Shown here in pieces: positions 35,912 to 54,932 of a stretch of DNA of 64,000 nucleotides; within the stretch, counting starts at the first letter, position 1, and the number at the start of each line of letters is the position of its first letter. A model generated the notes under the pieces. The model was not told the origin of the DNA and did not search any database. It saw only the letters and a list, made by a program, of their open reading frames with translations. This DNA comes from Candidatus Collinsella stercoripullorum (GTDB lineage Bacteria > Actinomycetota > Coriobacteriia > Coriobacteriales > Coriobacteriaceae). Location of the stretch: the NCBI GenBank assembly GCA_019117005.1, contig DXAO01000031.1, forward strand, positions 1 through 64,000. The letters run 5' to 3'. Position numbers and translations under genes: made by a program.

Positions 35912-36000
35912 GCATCACCCGTGCTTTGGCTCAACCCCCGCGCGGAGGGTAGGATTAACGACATCGTAACTATACCCGGCTTCGCGAGATGAGGGAACTC

Positions 36001-36915
36001 ATGCGGTATCTGATCGTCCACAACCCCGCATCGGGGCCCAGCTCGGATGAGATCTACGCCTTCGCCCACGCGCTCGCGACCCCGGGCGACGAGATCTGCT
36101 TCAGGCTCATCGGCGAGGGGATGGAGCCCGAGGAGGCCTGCGCCGACGTGCGCGCCTTCGACCGCGTCGTGGTCTCCGGCGGCGACGGGACGGTCTCCAA
36201 CGTCCTCGACTGCCTGCGCGGCACCCACGTGCCCATCCTCGTGTTCCCCTCGGGCACCGCGAACCTGTTCTTCAACAACATCGGCAACGCCCCCGAGGCC
36301 GCGGCGCTCGCCGCCGCCTGCCGTCGCGGGCGCTGCGCGAGCGTGGACATGGGCGAGCTGTACTGGCGCGACGAGGCGGGCGACATCCAGCGCCACGGGT
36401 TCATCATCATCGCGGGGTCCGGGTTCGACGCCGCGATCATGGAGAAGGCCGCGCCCAGCAAGAACGAGATCGGGGAGATCGCCTACGCGCTCGCCGCCCT
36501 CTCCACGCCCGAGCCGCAGGTCGCGCACTTCACCATCGAGCACGACGGGGTCGTCGACGAGCTGGACGGCATCGGGTGCATGGTGGGCAACACCGCCGTC
36601 ATCCAGAACGACATCAACCTCTTCCCCGACTGCCGCATGGACGACGGCATGATCGACATCGCCGTCATCGAGCCCGCCCGGACCGTCGAGCTGCTGCCCA
36701 CGCTGCTCGCCGGGGTGTTCGACCCCGCGGGCAAGGGCCTCGGCCGCCCGCAGTTCACGACCTTCCAGGCCAAGGAGGCCAAGATCACCTGCACGCCCTC
36801 GCTCGGCATGCAGTTCGACGGGGAGGTCATCCCCAACAACGGCGGGATGTTCGGCGCGCGCGTGCTGCCGAGCTGCCTCGACATCATCATCGACGACTTC
36901 TCCAAGCTGGCGTAG
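36001..36915 (+). CDS. Diacylglycerol kinase-family lipid kinase
   Basis: About 304 aa, DagK/YegS/sphingosine-kinase-like catalytic fold. The nucleotide-binding motif VVVSGGDGTVSNVLD and FPSGTANLFF appear in the N-terminal half, and DDGMIDIAVIE plus the FDGEVIP segment in the C-terminal half. Likely phosphorylates diacylglycerol or a related lipid. An ATG at 36001 sits after GAGGGAA and is preferred to the ATG four codons earlier. Divergent from rnd. Confidence 0.93.
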   Translation: MRYLIVHNPASGPSSDEIYAFAHALATPGDEICFRLIGEGMEPEEACADVRAFDRVVVSGGDGTVSNVLDCLRGTHVPILVFPSGTANLFFNNIGNAPEAAALAAACRRGRCASVDMGELYWRDEAGDIQRHGFIIIAGSGFDAAIMEKAAPSKNEIGEIAYALAALSTPEPQVAHFTIEHDGVVDELDGIGCMVGNTAVIQNDINLFPDCRMDDGMIDIAVIEPARTVELLPTLLAGVFDPAGKGLGRPQFTTFQAKEAKITCTPSLGMQFDGEVIPNNGGMFGARVLPSCLDIIIDDFSKLA

Positions 36916-36996: not shown

Positions 36997-37070
36997 TGCC
37001 GTCCGAGGCGACGGGGCGTAACGCCGCGGAAACAATCTCCGCCCCCGTCTTCCCAGACGCCGCTTCGCTG

Positions 37071-37079
37071 TGCTATAGT
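37071..37079 (+). promoter_or_regulatory. Extended -10 promoter of the Trp leader
   Basis: TGCTATAGT combines a TGn extension with a near-consensus -10 box (TATAGT, 37074-37079). No -35 box fits at 17 bases. Transcription would start near 37086, about 50 bases before the leader ATG. The same TGnTAnAGT pattern occurs before fsa and argS. Confidence 0.6.
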
Positions 37080-37136
37080 GCGCCTCAACGCAGCGCCCGC
37101 TGCGCATCCTCGAAGAACCAGAAAGGAGCCACCAGC

Positions 37137-37205
37137 ATGAAGCAGCTCACCTCCGCTCTCAACAACTGGTGGTGGCGTGATGCGAATCCGGTCGGTCGAC
37201 GGTGA
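37137..37205 (+). CDS. Tryptophan leader peptide (WWW)
   Basis: A 22-codon ORF with an excellent AAAGGAG site 8 bases upstream of its ATG. It encodes a peptide beginning MKQLTSALNN, followed by three consecutive TGG codons (Trp 11-13, 37167-37175), then a basic tail and TGA. Trp is rare and three in a row in a short, strongly initiated ORF just ahead of an intrinsic terminator is the mark of a ribosome-stalling attenuator leader. Downstream genes encode TrpP-like tryptophan transporter subunits. Too short to appear in most gene calls. Confidence 0.9.
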   Translation: MKQLTSALNNWWWRDANPVGRR

Positions 37206-37270
37206 GTCCCTCACGCCTATCCTCATAGCGCGCGCAAGGCCTCCGGTTTGACCGGGGGCCTTTTTCTTTG
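37188..37270 (+). terminator. Trp attenuator with possible antiterminator
   Basis: The terminator stem is GGCCTCCGGT / ACCGGGGGCC (37238-37260, ten pairs with one G-U, 3-base loop) followed by TTTTTCTTTG. The leader-peptide tail contains CCGGTC (37188-37193), complementary to GACCGG (37250-37255) in the terminator's descending arm. Pairing of these two would break the terminator. The known trp logic predicts that a ribosome stalled at the Trp codons favours the antiterminator and one that runs on favours termination. Confidence 0.8.
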
Positions 37271-37344
37271 CGCCCGCCGCCGACCCCCGCATCACGCGCC
37301 CCCGCCCCCTCCGGACCCACCCCTCCCCTGAAAGGACCTCCGCC

Positions 37345-37917
37345 ATGTCCCAGAACCCCCGCACCACCTCCGCCCGCACCGTCACCTCCATCGACCGCGG
37401 CAAGCTCGACATCAAGGCGCTCGTGCTGCTCGCCATCCTGCTCGCCGCCGGGTTCATCCTCAACATGACGCTCGGCAAGGCCATCGGCGCCATGTCCGCC
37501 GGCATGATCAACCCCGAGTTCATCATCTCCGCCTTCTGCCTCACCATCCTCGTCGTGCGCCCCAACCCGGGCCAGGCGCTCGTCATCGGCCTCGTGTCGG
37601 CAGCCGTCATCCAGCTCACCACCAGCCTGCCCGGCGCCGACTTCGTCGCCGAGGGCGTCGCCGCCGTGCTGATGGCCCTCATCGTCAACGCCGGCATGCG
37701 GACCGGGGCGCGCGCCGCCATCCCCGCCGTGGGCACCTTCGCGACCACCTTCGTCTCCGGCTTCATCTTCATGCTCATCCGCATGGCGCTCATGCAGTTC
37801 GACATGGCCATCGCCGCCGCCATGCTGCCGGTCGTCGCGCTCACCGCGGTGTTCAACGCCGTGCTCGTCGGCGCGCTGTACCTTCCCATCAAGAAGGCCC
37901 TGAAGCTCAACGACTAG
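37345..37917 (+). CDS. TrpP-like tryptophan transporter, ECF S component 1
   Basis: 190 aa membrane protein with about five or six spans. The LVIGLVSAAVIQLTTSLPG segment closely recalls the corresponding helix of Bacillus TrpP/YhaG-type tryptophan transporters. Its size and helix layout fit an ECF S component, and an ECF ATPase and T component follow in the same direction. AAAGGA precedes the ATG. It is the first structural gene after the Trp attenuator, 75 bases from its T-tract. Specificity for tryptophan is inferred from family resemblance plus the leader. Confidence 0.85.
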   Translation: MSQNPRTTSARTVTSIDRGKLDIKALVLLAILLAAGFILNMTLGKAIGAMSAGMINPEFIISAFCLTILVVRPNPGQALVIGLVSAAVIQLTTSLPGADFVAEGVAAVLMALIVNAGMRTGARAAIPAVGTFATTFVSGFIFMLIRMALMQFDMAIAAAMLPVVALTAVFNAVLVGALYLPIKKALKLND

Positions 37918-38047
37918 CCCGCTCGGGCCGAGCGCCCCGCCGTCCCCTCTCCATACCCGCATCGTGAACCCGAACGATCCCGCGGCCGCCCGCCGCGGGG
38001 CGGCCGCCGCATGCCGCGCCGCCGCACCCGAACGAAAGGATCCCGCC

Positions 38048-38596
38048 ATGTCCCAGAGCACCGCCGCCCGCACCGCCCCCGCCGCCCGCTCCGGCGTGCG
38101 CGACCTGTCCGCCCTCGTCCTGCTCGCCGTCCTTCTGGCCGCCGGCCTCATCCTCAACATGACGCTCGGCAACGCGCTGGCCATGACCGGCATCAAACCG
38201 CAGTTCATCATCGCCGCCTACGCCCTCGCCATCCTGCTCGTCCGCGGCACCTTCGCCCAGGCGGCGGTCTTCGGCCTCGTCTCGGCGGCCGTCATCCAGA
38301 TCAGCACCTCCATCCCCGGCCTCAACTTCGCCACCGAGGTCGCCGGCGCCCTCACCATGGCCGCCCTCACCCGCCTCGATCTGCGCGTCGCGGGACGCGA
38401 CGTGACGCCGCTTCTCGCCGCCTTCGCCGCCACCCTCGTCTCCGGCGCGCTGTTCGCCGCCGCGGGCACCGTCATCCAGGGGTTCGCGCTCGAGACCGCC
38501 GTGGTCAAGGTCCCGCTCGTGGCGGGCACCGCGGTCTTCAACGCCATCGTGGTGCAGGCCCTCTACCCCGCGCTGCGCGCGGCGCTCAAGCGGTAG
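38048..38596 (+). CDS. TrpP-like tryptophan transporter, ECF S component 2
   Basis: 182 aa paralogue of the preceding protein: the VFGLVSAAVIQISTSIPG helix and LVLLAVLLAAGLILNMTLGNAL near the N-terminus align directly with it. This indicates a tandem duplication that has since diverged. Start 38048 follows GAAAGGA. The pair could provide different affinities or ligands (for example tryptophan and an indole derivative), which sequence alone cannot show. Confidence 0.85.
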   Translation: MSQSTAARTAPAARSGVRDLSALVLLAVLLAAGLILNMTLGNALAMTGIKPQFIIAAYALAILLVRGTFAQAAVFGLVSAAVIQISTSIPGLNFATEVAGALTMAALTRLDLRVAGRDVTPLLAAFAATLVSGALFAAAGTVIQGFALETAVVKVPLVAGTAVFNAIVVQALYPALRAALKR

Positions 38597-38748: not shown

Positions 38749-40512
38749 ATGGCTACGATCATCGAGATGGACGAGGTCTCGTTCAGCTACGGCTCCGACG
38801 CGGCCCACGCACTCGACGGGATCAGCCTGACCGTCGAGGAGGGCGCGTTCGTCGGGGTCATCGGCCCGTCGGGCGCCGGCAAGTCGACGCTGGCCGCATG
38901 CCTGTCCGGGGCGATCCCCCACCACTACACCGGGGAGCTGTTCGGCTCCACCGTCGTGGCGGGGCGCGACACCTGCGACGTCACGCTCACCGACATCTCG
39001 CGCACCGTGGGGTCGGTCGCCCAGGACATCGACGCGCAGATGGTCGCCTCGGTGGTCGAGGACGAGCTGCTGTTCGGCCTCGAGAACTTCGGCGTGCCGC
39101 ACGACCGCATCGAGGAGCGCATCGACCGCGCCCTGTCCACGGTGGGCATCCGCGAGCTGCGCCACCGCGAGATCGCGACGCTCTCCGGCGGCCAGAAGCA
39201 GAAGGTCGCCATCGCGGCCATCCTGGCGCTCGAACCCCGCGTGCTCGTGCTCGACGAGCCCACCGCCGCGCTCGACCCCGTCAGCTCCCGCACGGTCTTC
39301 GAGACCCTCGCCGACGTCAACCGGCGCCTCGGGGTGACCGTCGTGGTGATCGAGCAGAAGGTCGCCCTGCTGTCGGCCTTCTGCGACCGCGTGCTCGTCA
39401 TGGACCGCGGGCGCATCGCGCTGTCGGGGACGCCGCACGAGGTCTTCGGGAACGGCGAGCGGCTGCGGGCGATCGGCGTGGACAGCCCGCGCACGGCGCG
39501 TATCTCCAACAGCCTCGCCCGCGCGGGGCTCACCGCGCGGACCGAGCCCTGCCTGGACGTCGACGAGGCGTACGGGCTCATCGCGGAGATCCTCTCGGGC
39601 GCGCGGGGCGCGGGGGTGCGGACGGCGTCGGGCCCTCGGCGCGCGGGCTCCCCCCACGCCCCGGCGCGGCCCCATGCCGAGGGCGCGCAGCCGGTCCTCA
39701 CCTTCCGCGACGTCGGCTACACCTACCCCGGCGGCGGGGCGAGCGTGACGGACCTCTCGCTGACCGTGTACCCCGGCGAGCTCGTGGGCGTCGTCGGCCA
39801 GAACGGAGCCGGCAAGACGACGCTCACCAAGCTTCTGAACGGCCTGCTGAAGCCCGCGGCGGGCGAGGTCCGCATCGCGGGGCTGGACACGCGCGAGACA
39901 CCGGTCTCGCGCATCGCCGCGCACGTGGCGACCCTCTTCCAGAACCCCGACCGCCAGATCTGCAAGAACACGGTGCTCGACGAGGTCGCCTTCGGGCTGG
40001 AGCTCACCGGGGTCGATCCCGCCGACGCGCGCGAGCGCGCGCGCAGGGTCATCGCGCGGTTCGGCCTGCCGGCGACCGAGGCTCCCTTCGCCCTGTCGCG
40101 CGGGCAGCGGCAGATGGTGGCGCTCGCCGGCGTGGTGGTCATGGAACCCGAGGTCGTGGTGCTCGACGAGCCCACGAGCGGGCTCGATTACCGCGAGTGC
40201 ATGACGGTCATGGAGACCGTGCGCGACATGGCCGACCACGGGTGCGCCGTTGTGATGGTCTGCCACGACATGGAGGTCGTCTCCGATTTCGCCGAGCGGA
40301 TCGTCGTCATGGCGGACGGGCGCATCCTGGGCCGCGGGCCGGCCGGCGAGCTGTTCGCCGACGACGCCCTCATGGCGCGGGCGAGCGTCACACCGCCGCA
40401 GGTCGTCGACCTCGCAGGGCGCCTCGCACGCGGCGTCTCCCCCGCCTTCGCGGGCATCACCGAGGTCAGCGATATCGTATCCACCGTGAAGGAGCTGATG
40501 GGCCGTGCTTAA
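38749..40512 (+). CDS. ECF transporter, fused double ATPase
   Basis: 587 aa with two complete ABC ATPase domains on one chain. Domain 1 shows Walker A GPSGAGKST (about residue 43), LSGGQKQK signature and LVLDEPTAALDP. Domain 2 (from about residue 318) shows GQNGAGKTT (about residue 350), a modified signature LSRGQRQM and VVLDEPTSGLD. They are joined by a Pro/Ala/Arg-rich linker of some 35 residues. This corresponds to the EcfA-EcfA' pair. The gene lies downstream of two TrpP-like S genes and overlaps the T-component gene by 8 bases, making a dedicated (group I) ECF module. Confidence 0.95.
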   Translation: MATIIEMDEVSFSYGSDAAHALDGISLTVEEGAFVGVIGPSGAGKSTLAACLSGAIPHHYTGELFGSTVVAGRDTCDVTLTDISRTVGSVAQDIDAQMVASVVEDELLFGLENFGVPHDRIEERIDRALSTVGIRELRHREIATLSGGQKQKVAIAAILALEPRVLVLDEPTAALDPVSSRTVFETLADVNRRLGVTVVVIEQKVALLSAFCDRVLVMDRGRIALSGTPHEVFGNGERLRAIGVDSPRTARISNSLARAGLTARTEPCLDVDEAYGLIAEILSGARGAGVRTASGPRRAGSPHAPARPHAEGAQPVLTFRDVGYTYPGGGASVTDLSLTVYPGELVGVVGQNGAGKTTLTKLLNGLLKPAAGEVRIAGLDTRETPVSRIAAHVATLFQNPDRQICKNTVLDEVAFGLELTGVDPADARERARRVIARFGLPATEAPFALSRGQRQMVALAGVVVMEPEVVVLDEPTSGLDYRECMTVMETVRDMADHGCAVVMVCHDMEVVSDFAERIVVMADGRILGRGPAGELFADDALMARASVTPPQVVDLAGRLARGVSPAFAGITEVSDIVSTVKELMGRA

Positions 40513-41251
40513 CGTCATCGACTACGTCCCCGGCGACACCCTGCTGCACCGCCTGAACCCCGTCTCCAAGCTGGCGCTCGCCGCCGCCATCATCGCCGCG
40601 ACGTTCCTGTCCGACGGCTTCGCCCCGCTCGCGGGCCTGCTCGCGCTCACCCTGGCGCTCGCCGCCTACGCCGGCGTCTTCGGGCGGCTCGCGCGCCTGC
40701 TGAAGCTGCTCGTCCCCATCGCGCTCATCATGTTCGCGCTGCAGCTCGTCTTCGTGCGCGGCGGGCGGCCCGTCGCGGGCTTCGCGACCGACGAGGGGCT
40801 CGTCACCGGCGGCAAGGCGTGCCTGCGCCTTCTGGGCGTGGCGCTGCCGCTCGTGCTCATGCTCATGGTGACCAAGCTCACCGACCTCGCCAACGCCTGC
40901 GTGGAGAAGCTGCACATCCCCTACAAGTACGCGTTCACCTTCACCACGGCGCTGCGCTTCGTGCCGGTGTTCAGCCAGGAGATGAACGCCATCATGGAGG
41001 CGCAGACCGCCCGCGGCGTGGAGTACGACACGAACAACCCCTTCAGGAAGATGCGGCTCATGCTCCCGCTGTGCATCCCGCTGCTCATCTCGAGCGTGGG
41101 CAAGACCGACGCCACCGCGCTCGCCGCCGAGCAGCGCGGCTTCTACCTCCGCACGCGGGAGAGCTCCTACCGGCGCTACCCCTTCGGCGCGCTCGACGCC
41201 GCGGCCTTCGCGCTGTGCGCGGCCCTCGTGGCGGCGGGCATCCTGCTGTAG
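40505..41251 (+). CDS. ECF transporter T component
   Basis: 248 aa transmembrane coupling subunit, with five or six spans. It begins with GTG inside the ATPase gene's last codons. A C-terminal coupling region contains TARGVEYDTNNPFRKMR, in which the A-R-G motif (ARGVEY) that contacts the ATPase is visible; a second such motif (AAEQRGFYLR) follows. Completes the module that energises the two S components. Confidence 0.94.
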   Translation: MLNVIDYVPGDTLLHRLNPVSKLALAAAIIAATFLSDGFAPLAGLLALTLALAAYAGVFGRLARLLKLLVPIALIMFALQLVFVRGGRPVAGFATDEGLVTGGKACLRLLGVALPLVLMLMVTKLTDLANACVEKLHIPYKYAFTFTTALRFVPVFSQEMNAIMEAQTARGVEYDTNNPFRKMRLMLPLCIPLLISSVGKTDATALAAEQRGFYLRTRESSYRRYPFGALDAAAFALCAALVAAGILL

Positions 41252-54664: not shown

Positions 54665-54776
54665 CGCGTTCGCTCGGCCTCGCGACCTCATCGGTTCGAA
54701 TCCATGCGGGGACGACCGGTATGAAAAAGCCCCTGTGCCGGGGCCTGTGTGCAGATGGTGGACCGTCAGGGATTCG
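54665..54776. repeat. 112-bp direct repeat, right copy
   Basis: The right copy of the duplication, running into the intact tRNA-Lys gene to about its T-arm. Offset from the left copy is 182 bases. Confidence 0.8.
54724..54744 (-). terminator. Terminator of the tRNA transcript
   Basis: On the minus strand GCCCC-GGCACA-GGGGC is followed by TTTTT, 12 bases after the tRNA-Lys CCA end. A second copy lies in the duplication at 54541-54562 with a TTTTTT run. Confidence 0.85.
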
Positions 54777-54832
54777 AACCCTGGACCTTGGGATTAAGAG
54801 TCCCCTGCTCTAGCCAGCTGAGCTAACGGTCC
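54756..54832 (-). tRNA. tRNA-Lys (CTT)
   Basis: Acceptor stem GGACCGT/ACGGTCC, D-arm AGCTCAGCTGGCTAGAGC, anticodon loop CTCTTAA with anticodon CTT, T-arm CAGGG-TTCGAAT-CCCTG, and an encoded CCA tail. All arms pair. Transcribed after tRNA-His on the minus strand. Its 3' end is duplicated about 180 bases downstream. Confidence 0.95.
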
Positions 54833-54854
54833 ATTCAACGTGCGCAAGAGAGGA

Positions 54855-54932
54855 TGGGGTGGGTAAAGGGACTCGAACCCTCGACCTACGGGACCACAAC
54901 CCGTCGCTCTAGCCAACTGAGCTACACCCACC
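54855..54932 (-). tRNA. tRNA-His (GTG)
   Basis: Anticodon loop TTGTGGT with anticodon GTG. The acceptor stem GTGGGTG pairs with TACCCAC, and an extra 5' G (position 54932) faces discriminator C, the hallmark of tRNA-His. T-arm GAGGG-TTCGAGT-CCCTT and encoded CCA are present. First in the pair, 22 bases before tRNA-Lys. Confidence 0.95.

Follow-up and report, generated by a model that had tools for sequence, protein, structure and literature searches.

In Candidatus Collinsella stercoripullorum, the operon of a predicted tryptophan ECF importer is very probably controlled by a ribosome-mediated transcription attenuator that reads the supply of charged tRNA-Trp, and the importer would probably be turned on when tryptophan is short. 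TGG is the sole Trp codon, and ribosome-mediated attenuation of trp biosynthesis is classical. An initial annotation had proposed attenuation of this kind in front of TrpP-like genes; the anatomy of the leader, its conservation, the TrpP-like family of the transporter and a UGG T-box on orthologous genes all support this reading, which proved largely right. The window is the whole stretch of DNA analyzed (64,000 nucleotides of contig DXAO01000031.1), and features lie on its plus strand unless stated otherwise.

The Importer Operon and Its Predicted Substrate

The operon that the leader is predicted to control encodes a TrpP-like ECF S component (S1, 37345-37917), a second S component of the TrpP family (S2, 38048-38596), a fused ECF ATPase EcfA-EcfA' (38749-40512; TIGR04520 and TIGR04521 both above cut-off) and the transmembrane component EcfT (40505-41251; Pfam CbiQ, 96 bits), with tryptophan as the substrate suggested by homology and context. 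The initial annotation had these genes resemble TrpP, which holds narrowly for S2 and falls short for S1: against the TrpP profile (Pfam PF17099, curated cut-off 27.2 bits), S2 just passes with 27.3 bits and S1 stays below with 20.5 bits, and an Eggerthellaceae homologue scores 33.1. S1 and S2 share 48% identity and stand in tandem with one common ECF module (37345-38596); many relatives have the first only. The AlphaFold model of S1 (pLDDT 79.6) gave ThiT, RibU, FolT and BioY as top Foldseek matches, ThiT and RibU being the best, all at a moderate level (probability at most 0.99, TM 0.53-0.59, E about 0.1 and above). Judged by this modeled fold and the adjoining EcfAA' and EcfT, S1 is an ECF S component. 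Comparison of the S2 sequence with solved structures yielded no match. The proposal of a TrpP-like importer thus gained from the S-component fold of S1, as well as from the UGG-specifier T-boxes that accompany its orthologues in Eggerthellaceae.

TrpC had no match in 66 of 67 Coriobacteriaceae genomes, with a control match in 14 of 14 reference genomes. Members of this family appear unable to make tryptophan, and the missing TrpC implies that import of tryptophan should be vital to them.

Anatomy of the Leader

An extended -10 promoter element of the TG type (TGCTATAGT, 37071-37079) precedes the leader; such elements were detected 5' of 60 of 115 leaders, compared with 1 of 115 when the upstream sequence was shuffled. 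The 22-codon open reading frame, strong ribosome site and three consecutive Trp codons of the initial annotation are all present (37123-37205). The Shine-Dalgarno sequence AAGGAG (37123-37128) is spaced 8 nt from the ATG of a frame of 22 codons plus TGA encoding MKQLTSALNNWWWRDANPVGRR (37137-37205), and GAAAGGAGCCACC is kept in nearly all Coriobacteriaceae leaders. The proposed sensing site consists of three tandem Trp codons (TGGTGGTGG, 37167-37175), conserved as TGG TGG TGG in 117 of 118 aligned leaders and as TGG GCC TGG in the remaining one.

Region 1, comprising the end of the Trp codons and the Arg-Asp-Ala codons (37174-37185), can pair with 37211-37217 and also with 37287-37297. The former segment, UCACGCC directly 3' of the stop codon, is complementary to GGCGUGA of region 1, and a pause-type 1:2 hairpin is predicted in the fold of the window leader. 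Region 2 (GGUCGACGG, 37194-37202), which covers the last three sense codons Gly-Arg-Arg, would be the antiterminator strand and faces the near-invariant GACC (37250-37253) at the apex of an intrinsic terminator (regions 3 and 4 plus T-tract, 37236-37268). The terminator was described at the outset with ten pairs and a T-tract, and the hairpin (37236-37262) indeed has 10-12 pairs and a 3-nt loop followed by TTTTTCTTT. The complementary segment proposed with it as antiterminator is also present, its place now being refined mainly to the end of the reading frame. Mean terminator energy over 85 leaders was -22.9 kcal/mol, and the fold of the 201-nt leader was better than 200 of 200 dinucleotide shuffles (z -2.7).

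Searches by pattern and by RNA model found the full leader once in the C. stercoripullorum genome. Against Rfam, neither an attenuator nor a T-box was recognized in the window at the gathering threshold or in 37000-37400 at a relaxed threshold, and the stem I specifier plus AGGUGGNACCGC antiterminator of a T-box were not found in the window leader.

Conservation across Coriobacteriales

An S1 orthologue was detected in 64 of 67 genomes of the family; across the order, 193 of 274 genomes had one. Upstream regions were compared for 64 Coriobacteriaceae loci and 58 Atopobiaceae-type loci (family f2: Olsenella, Atopobium), the family names being assigned partly from member organisms. Loss of the Trp codons or the terminator in relatives had been named in advance as evidence against attenuation, and the opposite was found: 62 of the 64 Coriobacteriaceae loci and 54 of the 58 from Atopobiaceae (116/122 together) combine a tandem-Trp leader with GGUC and a GACC terminator, and the promoter and ribosome site are kept along with WWW and GGUC/GACC in more than 110 species. 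The guess from the letters that the genome is Coriobacteriia-like was correct, since it belongs to the Collinsella family of the class Coriobacteriia. Among the exceptions, loci L058 and L152 have WW only. At locus L215 the S1 contig is cut and the leader sits at the end of another contig. At L153, a Trp leader frame was not found and a GGGUUGACCGGGAGCC-type terminator is retained, possibly a decayed attenuator. When 296 Actinomycetota genomes were searched with covariance model R1, only weak matches (E 2e-6 and worse) were obtained outside Coriobacteriales; three of these were inspected and turned out to be plain terminators without Trp codons.

In Slackia isoflavoniconvertens (L111/L093, family f4), a full attenuator with the post-terminator region 5 accompanies an S1 of the Coriobacteriaceae type, which is 71% identical to that of the window, compared with approximately 40% in other genomes of f4. 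It is probable that regulator and operon were horizontally transferred together.

T-Boxes and Other Relatives

The more distant loci comprised 28 from Eggerthellaceae and two from other families. In 27 of these 30, a T-box sequence precedes the S1-orthologous gene; its specifier is UGG at nearly all of these loci, an independent sign of tryptophan. Seven of the T-boxes were tested against Rfam RF00230; they scored 56-77 bits, below the curated 93, and covered the whole model. The UGG T-boxes before TrpP-like genes in this set (L162-L191) lie under the Rfam cut-off and are candidates for extending the model. In a T-box-free lineage (L177, genus g37), a WWW leader encoding AWWWNKPE* is followed by a different terminator sequence and apparently arose independently.

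A WWW/GGUC/GACC attenuator was also found at four loci of the Eggerthellaceae genus g71 (L208-L211), where it precedes an NSS/SNF symporter (PF00209) unrelated to S1. The best PDB match of this symporter was 4us3, which is MhsT, for which a tryptophan-bound structure exists. One of these genomes (G246) has a TrpP-family gene further downstream of the symporter.

T-box-like elements below the cut-off (54.5 and 34.7 bits) are present at two loci of the C. stercoripullorum genome (L216 and L217), ahead of apparent ileS and pheS genes. In addition, two adjacent tRNA genes are located on the minus strand of the window (54759-54931).

The Predicted Antiterminator and the Proposed Switch

Leaders end in G-R/Q-x-stop. 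Of 85 unique leaders, 84 use GGU for the Gly of this tail and 84 have C as the following base, while none of the 144 Gly codons in the genes around the window is GGU. The GACC at the terminator apex is nearly invariant as well, including loop bases that the terminator itself does not need. In genus g71, the reading frame stops shortly after WWW and the GGUCGA segment (GGUCGAUCG) lies 3' of the stop codon, implying that it is the RNA rather than the peptide that is conserved. The GGU bias and the g71 arrangement suggest that what looks like a conserved peptide tail reflects a constraint on the RNA, and on these two grounds the tail was rejected as an arrest motif. GGUC, standing opposite the GACC of the terminator apex, is likely the antiterminator. 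The letters differ in three divergent leaders (L160, L177 and L190), which nonetheless keep a segment complementary to the terminator apex, shuffles being as good in 1.7%, 9% and 3.3% of cases, respectively; among main-type leaders, only 49 of 85 reached the 5% level in the same kind of test.

Masked folding predicted that the helix between regions 2 and 3 forms before region 4 is made when a ribosome sits on the first, second or third Trp codon, and that it does not form by that time when the ribosome is at the stop codon. Without any ribosome the same helix is likewise predicted at this stage, ahead of region 4, and folding by itself is therefore no proof of the switch. Covariation, proposed earlier as a check, was unconvincing for this helix (91.0% paired vs 89.2% in shuffles) because it is mostly invariant and hardly varies; the case for the antiterminator is therefore built on invariance, on codon bias and on the divergent leaders. 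The helix between region 1 and region 5, described below, does covary.

The reading frame, ribosome site, Trp codons, terminator, complementary segments, gene context and absence of TrpC are seen in the sequence and its comparison with relatives; the direction of the switch, the order of folding and tryptophan as the substrate are what we infer. With ample charged tRNA-Trp, the leading ribosome would move past WWW to the stop codon and cover region 2, the terminator would form, and RNA polymerase would stop near 37265. When charged tRNA-Trp is scarce, a ribosome stalled on WWW would mask region 1 and leave region 2 free. Region 2 could then base-pair with the apex of the terminator (..UUUGACC) ahead of synthesis of the 3' arm, so that termination would fail and S1-S2-EcfAA'-EcfT would be transcribed.

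A Helix beyond the Terminator in Coriobacteriaceae

Region 5, a post-terminator block in the window (CCGCAUCACGC, 37287-37297), is complementary to region 1. Most Coriobacteriaceae have the block (U)CGCAUCACGCGCC between terminator and gene, where the surrounding sequence is hardly alignable, and this block is complementary to the Trp-Arg-Asp-Ala codons. Codons and block change jointly: GCGUGGUUCUC occurs with GAGGGCCACGC, GCGCGAUG with CAUCGCGC, and GCAUGACGCG with CGCGUCAUGC. At least 9 of 11 pairs can form in 58 of 63 loci. Parsimony on the S gene tree (one reconstruction) counted 11 compensatory double changes compared with 0-2 in slid registers, and double-change cells numbered 24 compared with 7.1 +/- 2.3 in shuffles (0/500). 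The helix is also part of the minimum-energy fold predicted for the complete 5' UTR. Region 5 is not a general feature of both families, its mean z being -0.4 in Atopobiaceae vs -2.2 in Coriobacteriaceae. A role of region 5 as DNA operator for a larger regulon was rejected: there are only two exact copies in the genome, and the one-mismatch count was 33 vs 25 for a reversed-pattern control.

Region 5 is made only after the terminator and so can have no part in the first decision. A second tier of control in Coriobacteriaceae is tentatively proposed, as a possibility that falls somewhat short of an even chance. Once the terminator has been passed, region 5 would form 11-12 bp with the Trp-Arg-Asp codons if these are free of ribosomes, and the helix might then close the leader frame in finished mRNAs, affect how stable the importer mRNA is or how it is processed, or offer the released leader a target. 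The leader RNA of the E. coli trp operon folds back and limits re-translation of its leader, and for this reason a lock on the leader frame is our first guess; RNA processing and a trans target of the released leader are the alternatives. Should this second tier exist, the Trp codons would be put to use twice, and the leader would represent a novel form of leader-peptide attenuation.

Alternative Explanations

The same helix bears on whether the terminated leader has a role besides attenuation, as a small RNA that targets the importer mRNA in trans via region 5, as in the rnTrpL/trpDC case of Sinorhizobium (PMC7298713). Region 1 of the released leader is matched by region 5 in the full-length mRNA, the two covary strongly, and rnTrpL offers a precedent; however, the identical pairing is possible in cis and is seen in the predicted fold of the 5' UTR, and action in trans is considered unlikely. 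Somewhat less probable still is an attenuator that reads tryptophan in front of a transporter for a related compound, such as indole or a tryptophan precursor or derivative. The sub-threshold TrpP score of S1 would fit such a cargo, as would the sharing of one module by two different S components, but the genomes are Trp-auxotrophic as judged by TrpC absence, the family is that of TrpP, and two independent devices sensing Trp-tRNA are found on the same gene.

A different sensor would be an arrest peptide that responds to free tryptophan in the manner of TnaC, high tryptophan stalling the ribosome and changing expression. A short Trp-containing leader with a conserved peptide tail would fit it; yet RNA pairing accounts for the tail, which in g71 falls outside the frame, the residues after WWW drift among leaders (RDA, RGS, HDA, RNF), three tandem Trp codons fit codon starvation, and sister lineages use a T-box, which switches genes on with uncharged tRNA-Trp. 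We regard this reading as very improbable. Least credible is a hairpin that merely terminates the upstream lipid-kinase gene next to a WWW frame arising by chance: a terminator is expected downstream of 35989-36915, but the joint conservation of the leader elements across species refutes it, leaving this reading a negligible chance. Attenuation by Trp-tRNA supply remains the preferred explanation.

Relation to Known Systems and Biological Significance

The trpP gene of Bacillus is regulated by TRAP through protein-mediated translational repression. It likewise encodes a TrpP-family tryptophan transporter under tryptophan control, for which leader-peptide attenuation would be used here instead. 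In 2005, Seliverstov et al. described classical Trp attenuators ahead of trp operons and trpS in Corynebacterium and Streptomyces, and transporters are unmentioned among these actinobacterial attenuators (PMC1262725); tandem-Trp leaders are established for trp of C. glutamicum (PMC1262725, PMC11995493). Like those leaders and E. coli trpL, the present one has a short frame with two or three tandem UGG codons, a GC-rich terminator and a predicted competing antiterminator (PMC1262725). Unlike the leaders of Corynebacterium and Streptomyces, it would control an ECF importer operon rather than trp biosynthesis or trpS, it carries a GGUC...GACC signature, in which the predicted antiterminator extends into the terminator apex, instead of gGCC-rGCy-GGCC (PMC1262725), and in Coriobacteriaceae it has an extra covarying helix to a post-terminator segment. 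The T-box (RF00230) also responds to the charging state of tRNA-Trp and is found in front of the orthologous S-component gene in Eggerthellaceae, but it is a different RNA without a leader peptide and is absent from the window. The BmrCD attenuator of B. subtilis is similar in being ribosome-mediated and placed on an ABC transporter operon, but it serves a multidrug exporter and responds to antibiotics (PMC4191407), whereas the present one would serve an amino-acid importer and respond to an amino acid. Sinorhizobium meliloti rnTrpL is also a Trp attenuator leader whose RNA is able to act on another mRNA segment; its action in trans on trpDC has been shown, whereas the pairing here is known by complementarity within one transcript (PMC7298713).

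Searches of the open-access literature for Coriobacteriia leader peptides or Trp transporter attenuators turned up no description of this system. Within the papers covered, the earlier description of the case as little-described holds: the Trp attenuators reported for Actinobacteria lie upstream of trp operons and of trpS, and not of transporters (PMC1262725). The attenuator belongs to a known class, of which the helix between regions 1 and 5 may make it a variant. Leader frames of this kind are short enough to be missed by annotation, and Rfam has no matching family.

Two unrelated RNA devices appear to read the same tRNA for one importer, a T-box in Eggerthellaceae and a leader peptide in Coriobacteriaceae and Atopobiaceae, which is, as judged from sequence comparison, a clean natural case of regulatory replacement. 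A textbook mechanism would have been moved from synthesis to uptake in gut bacteria that are apparently unable to make tryptophan, and the switch would set how strongly they compete for tryptophan, a nutrient common to host and microbes.
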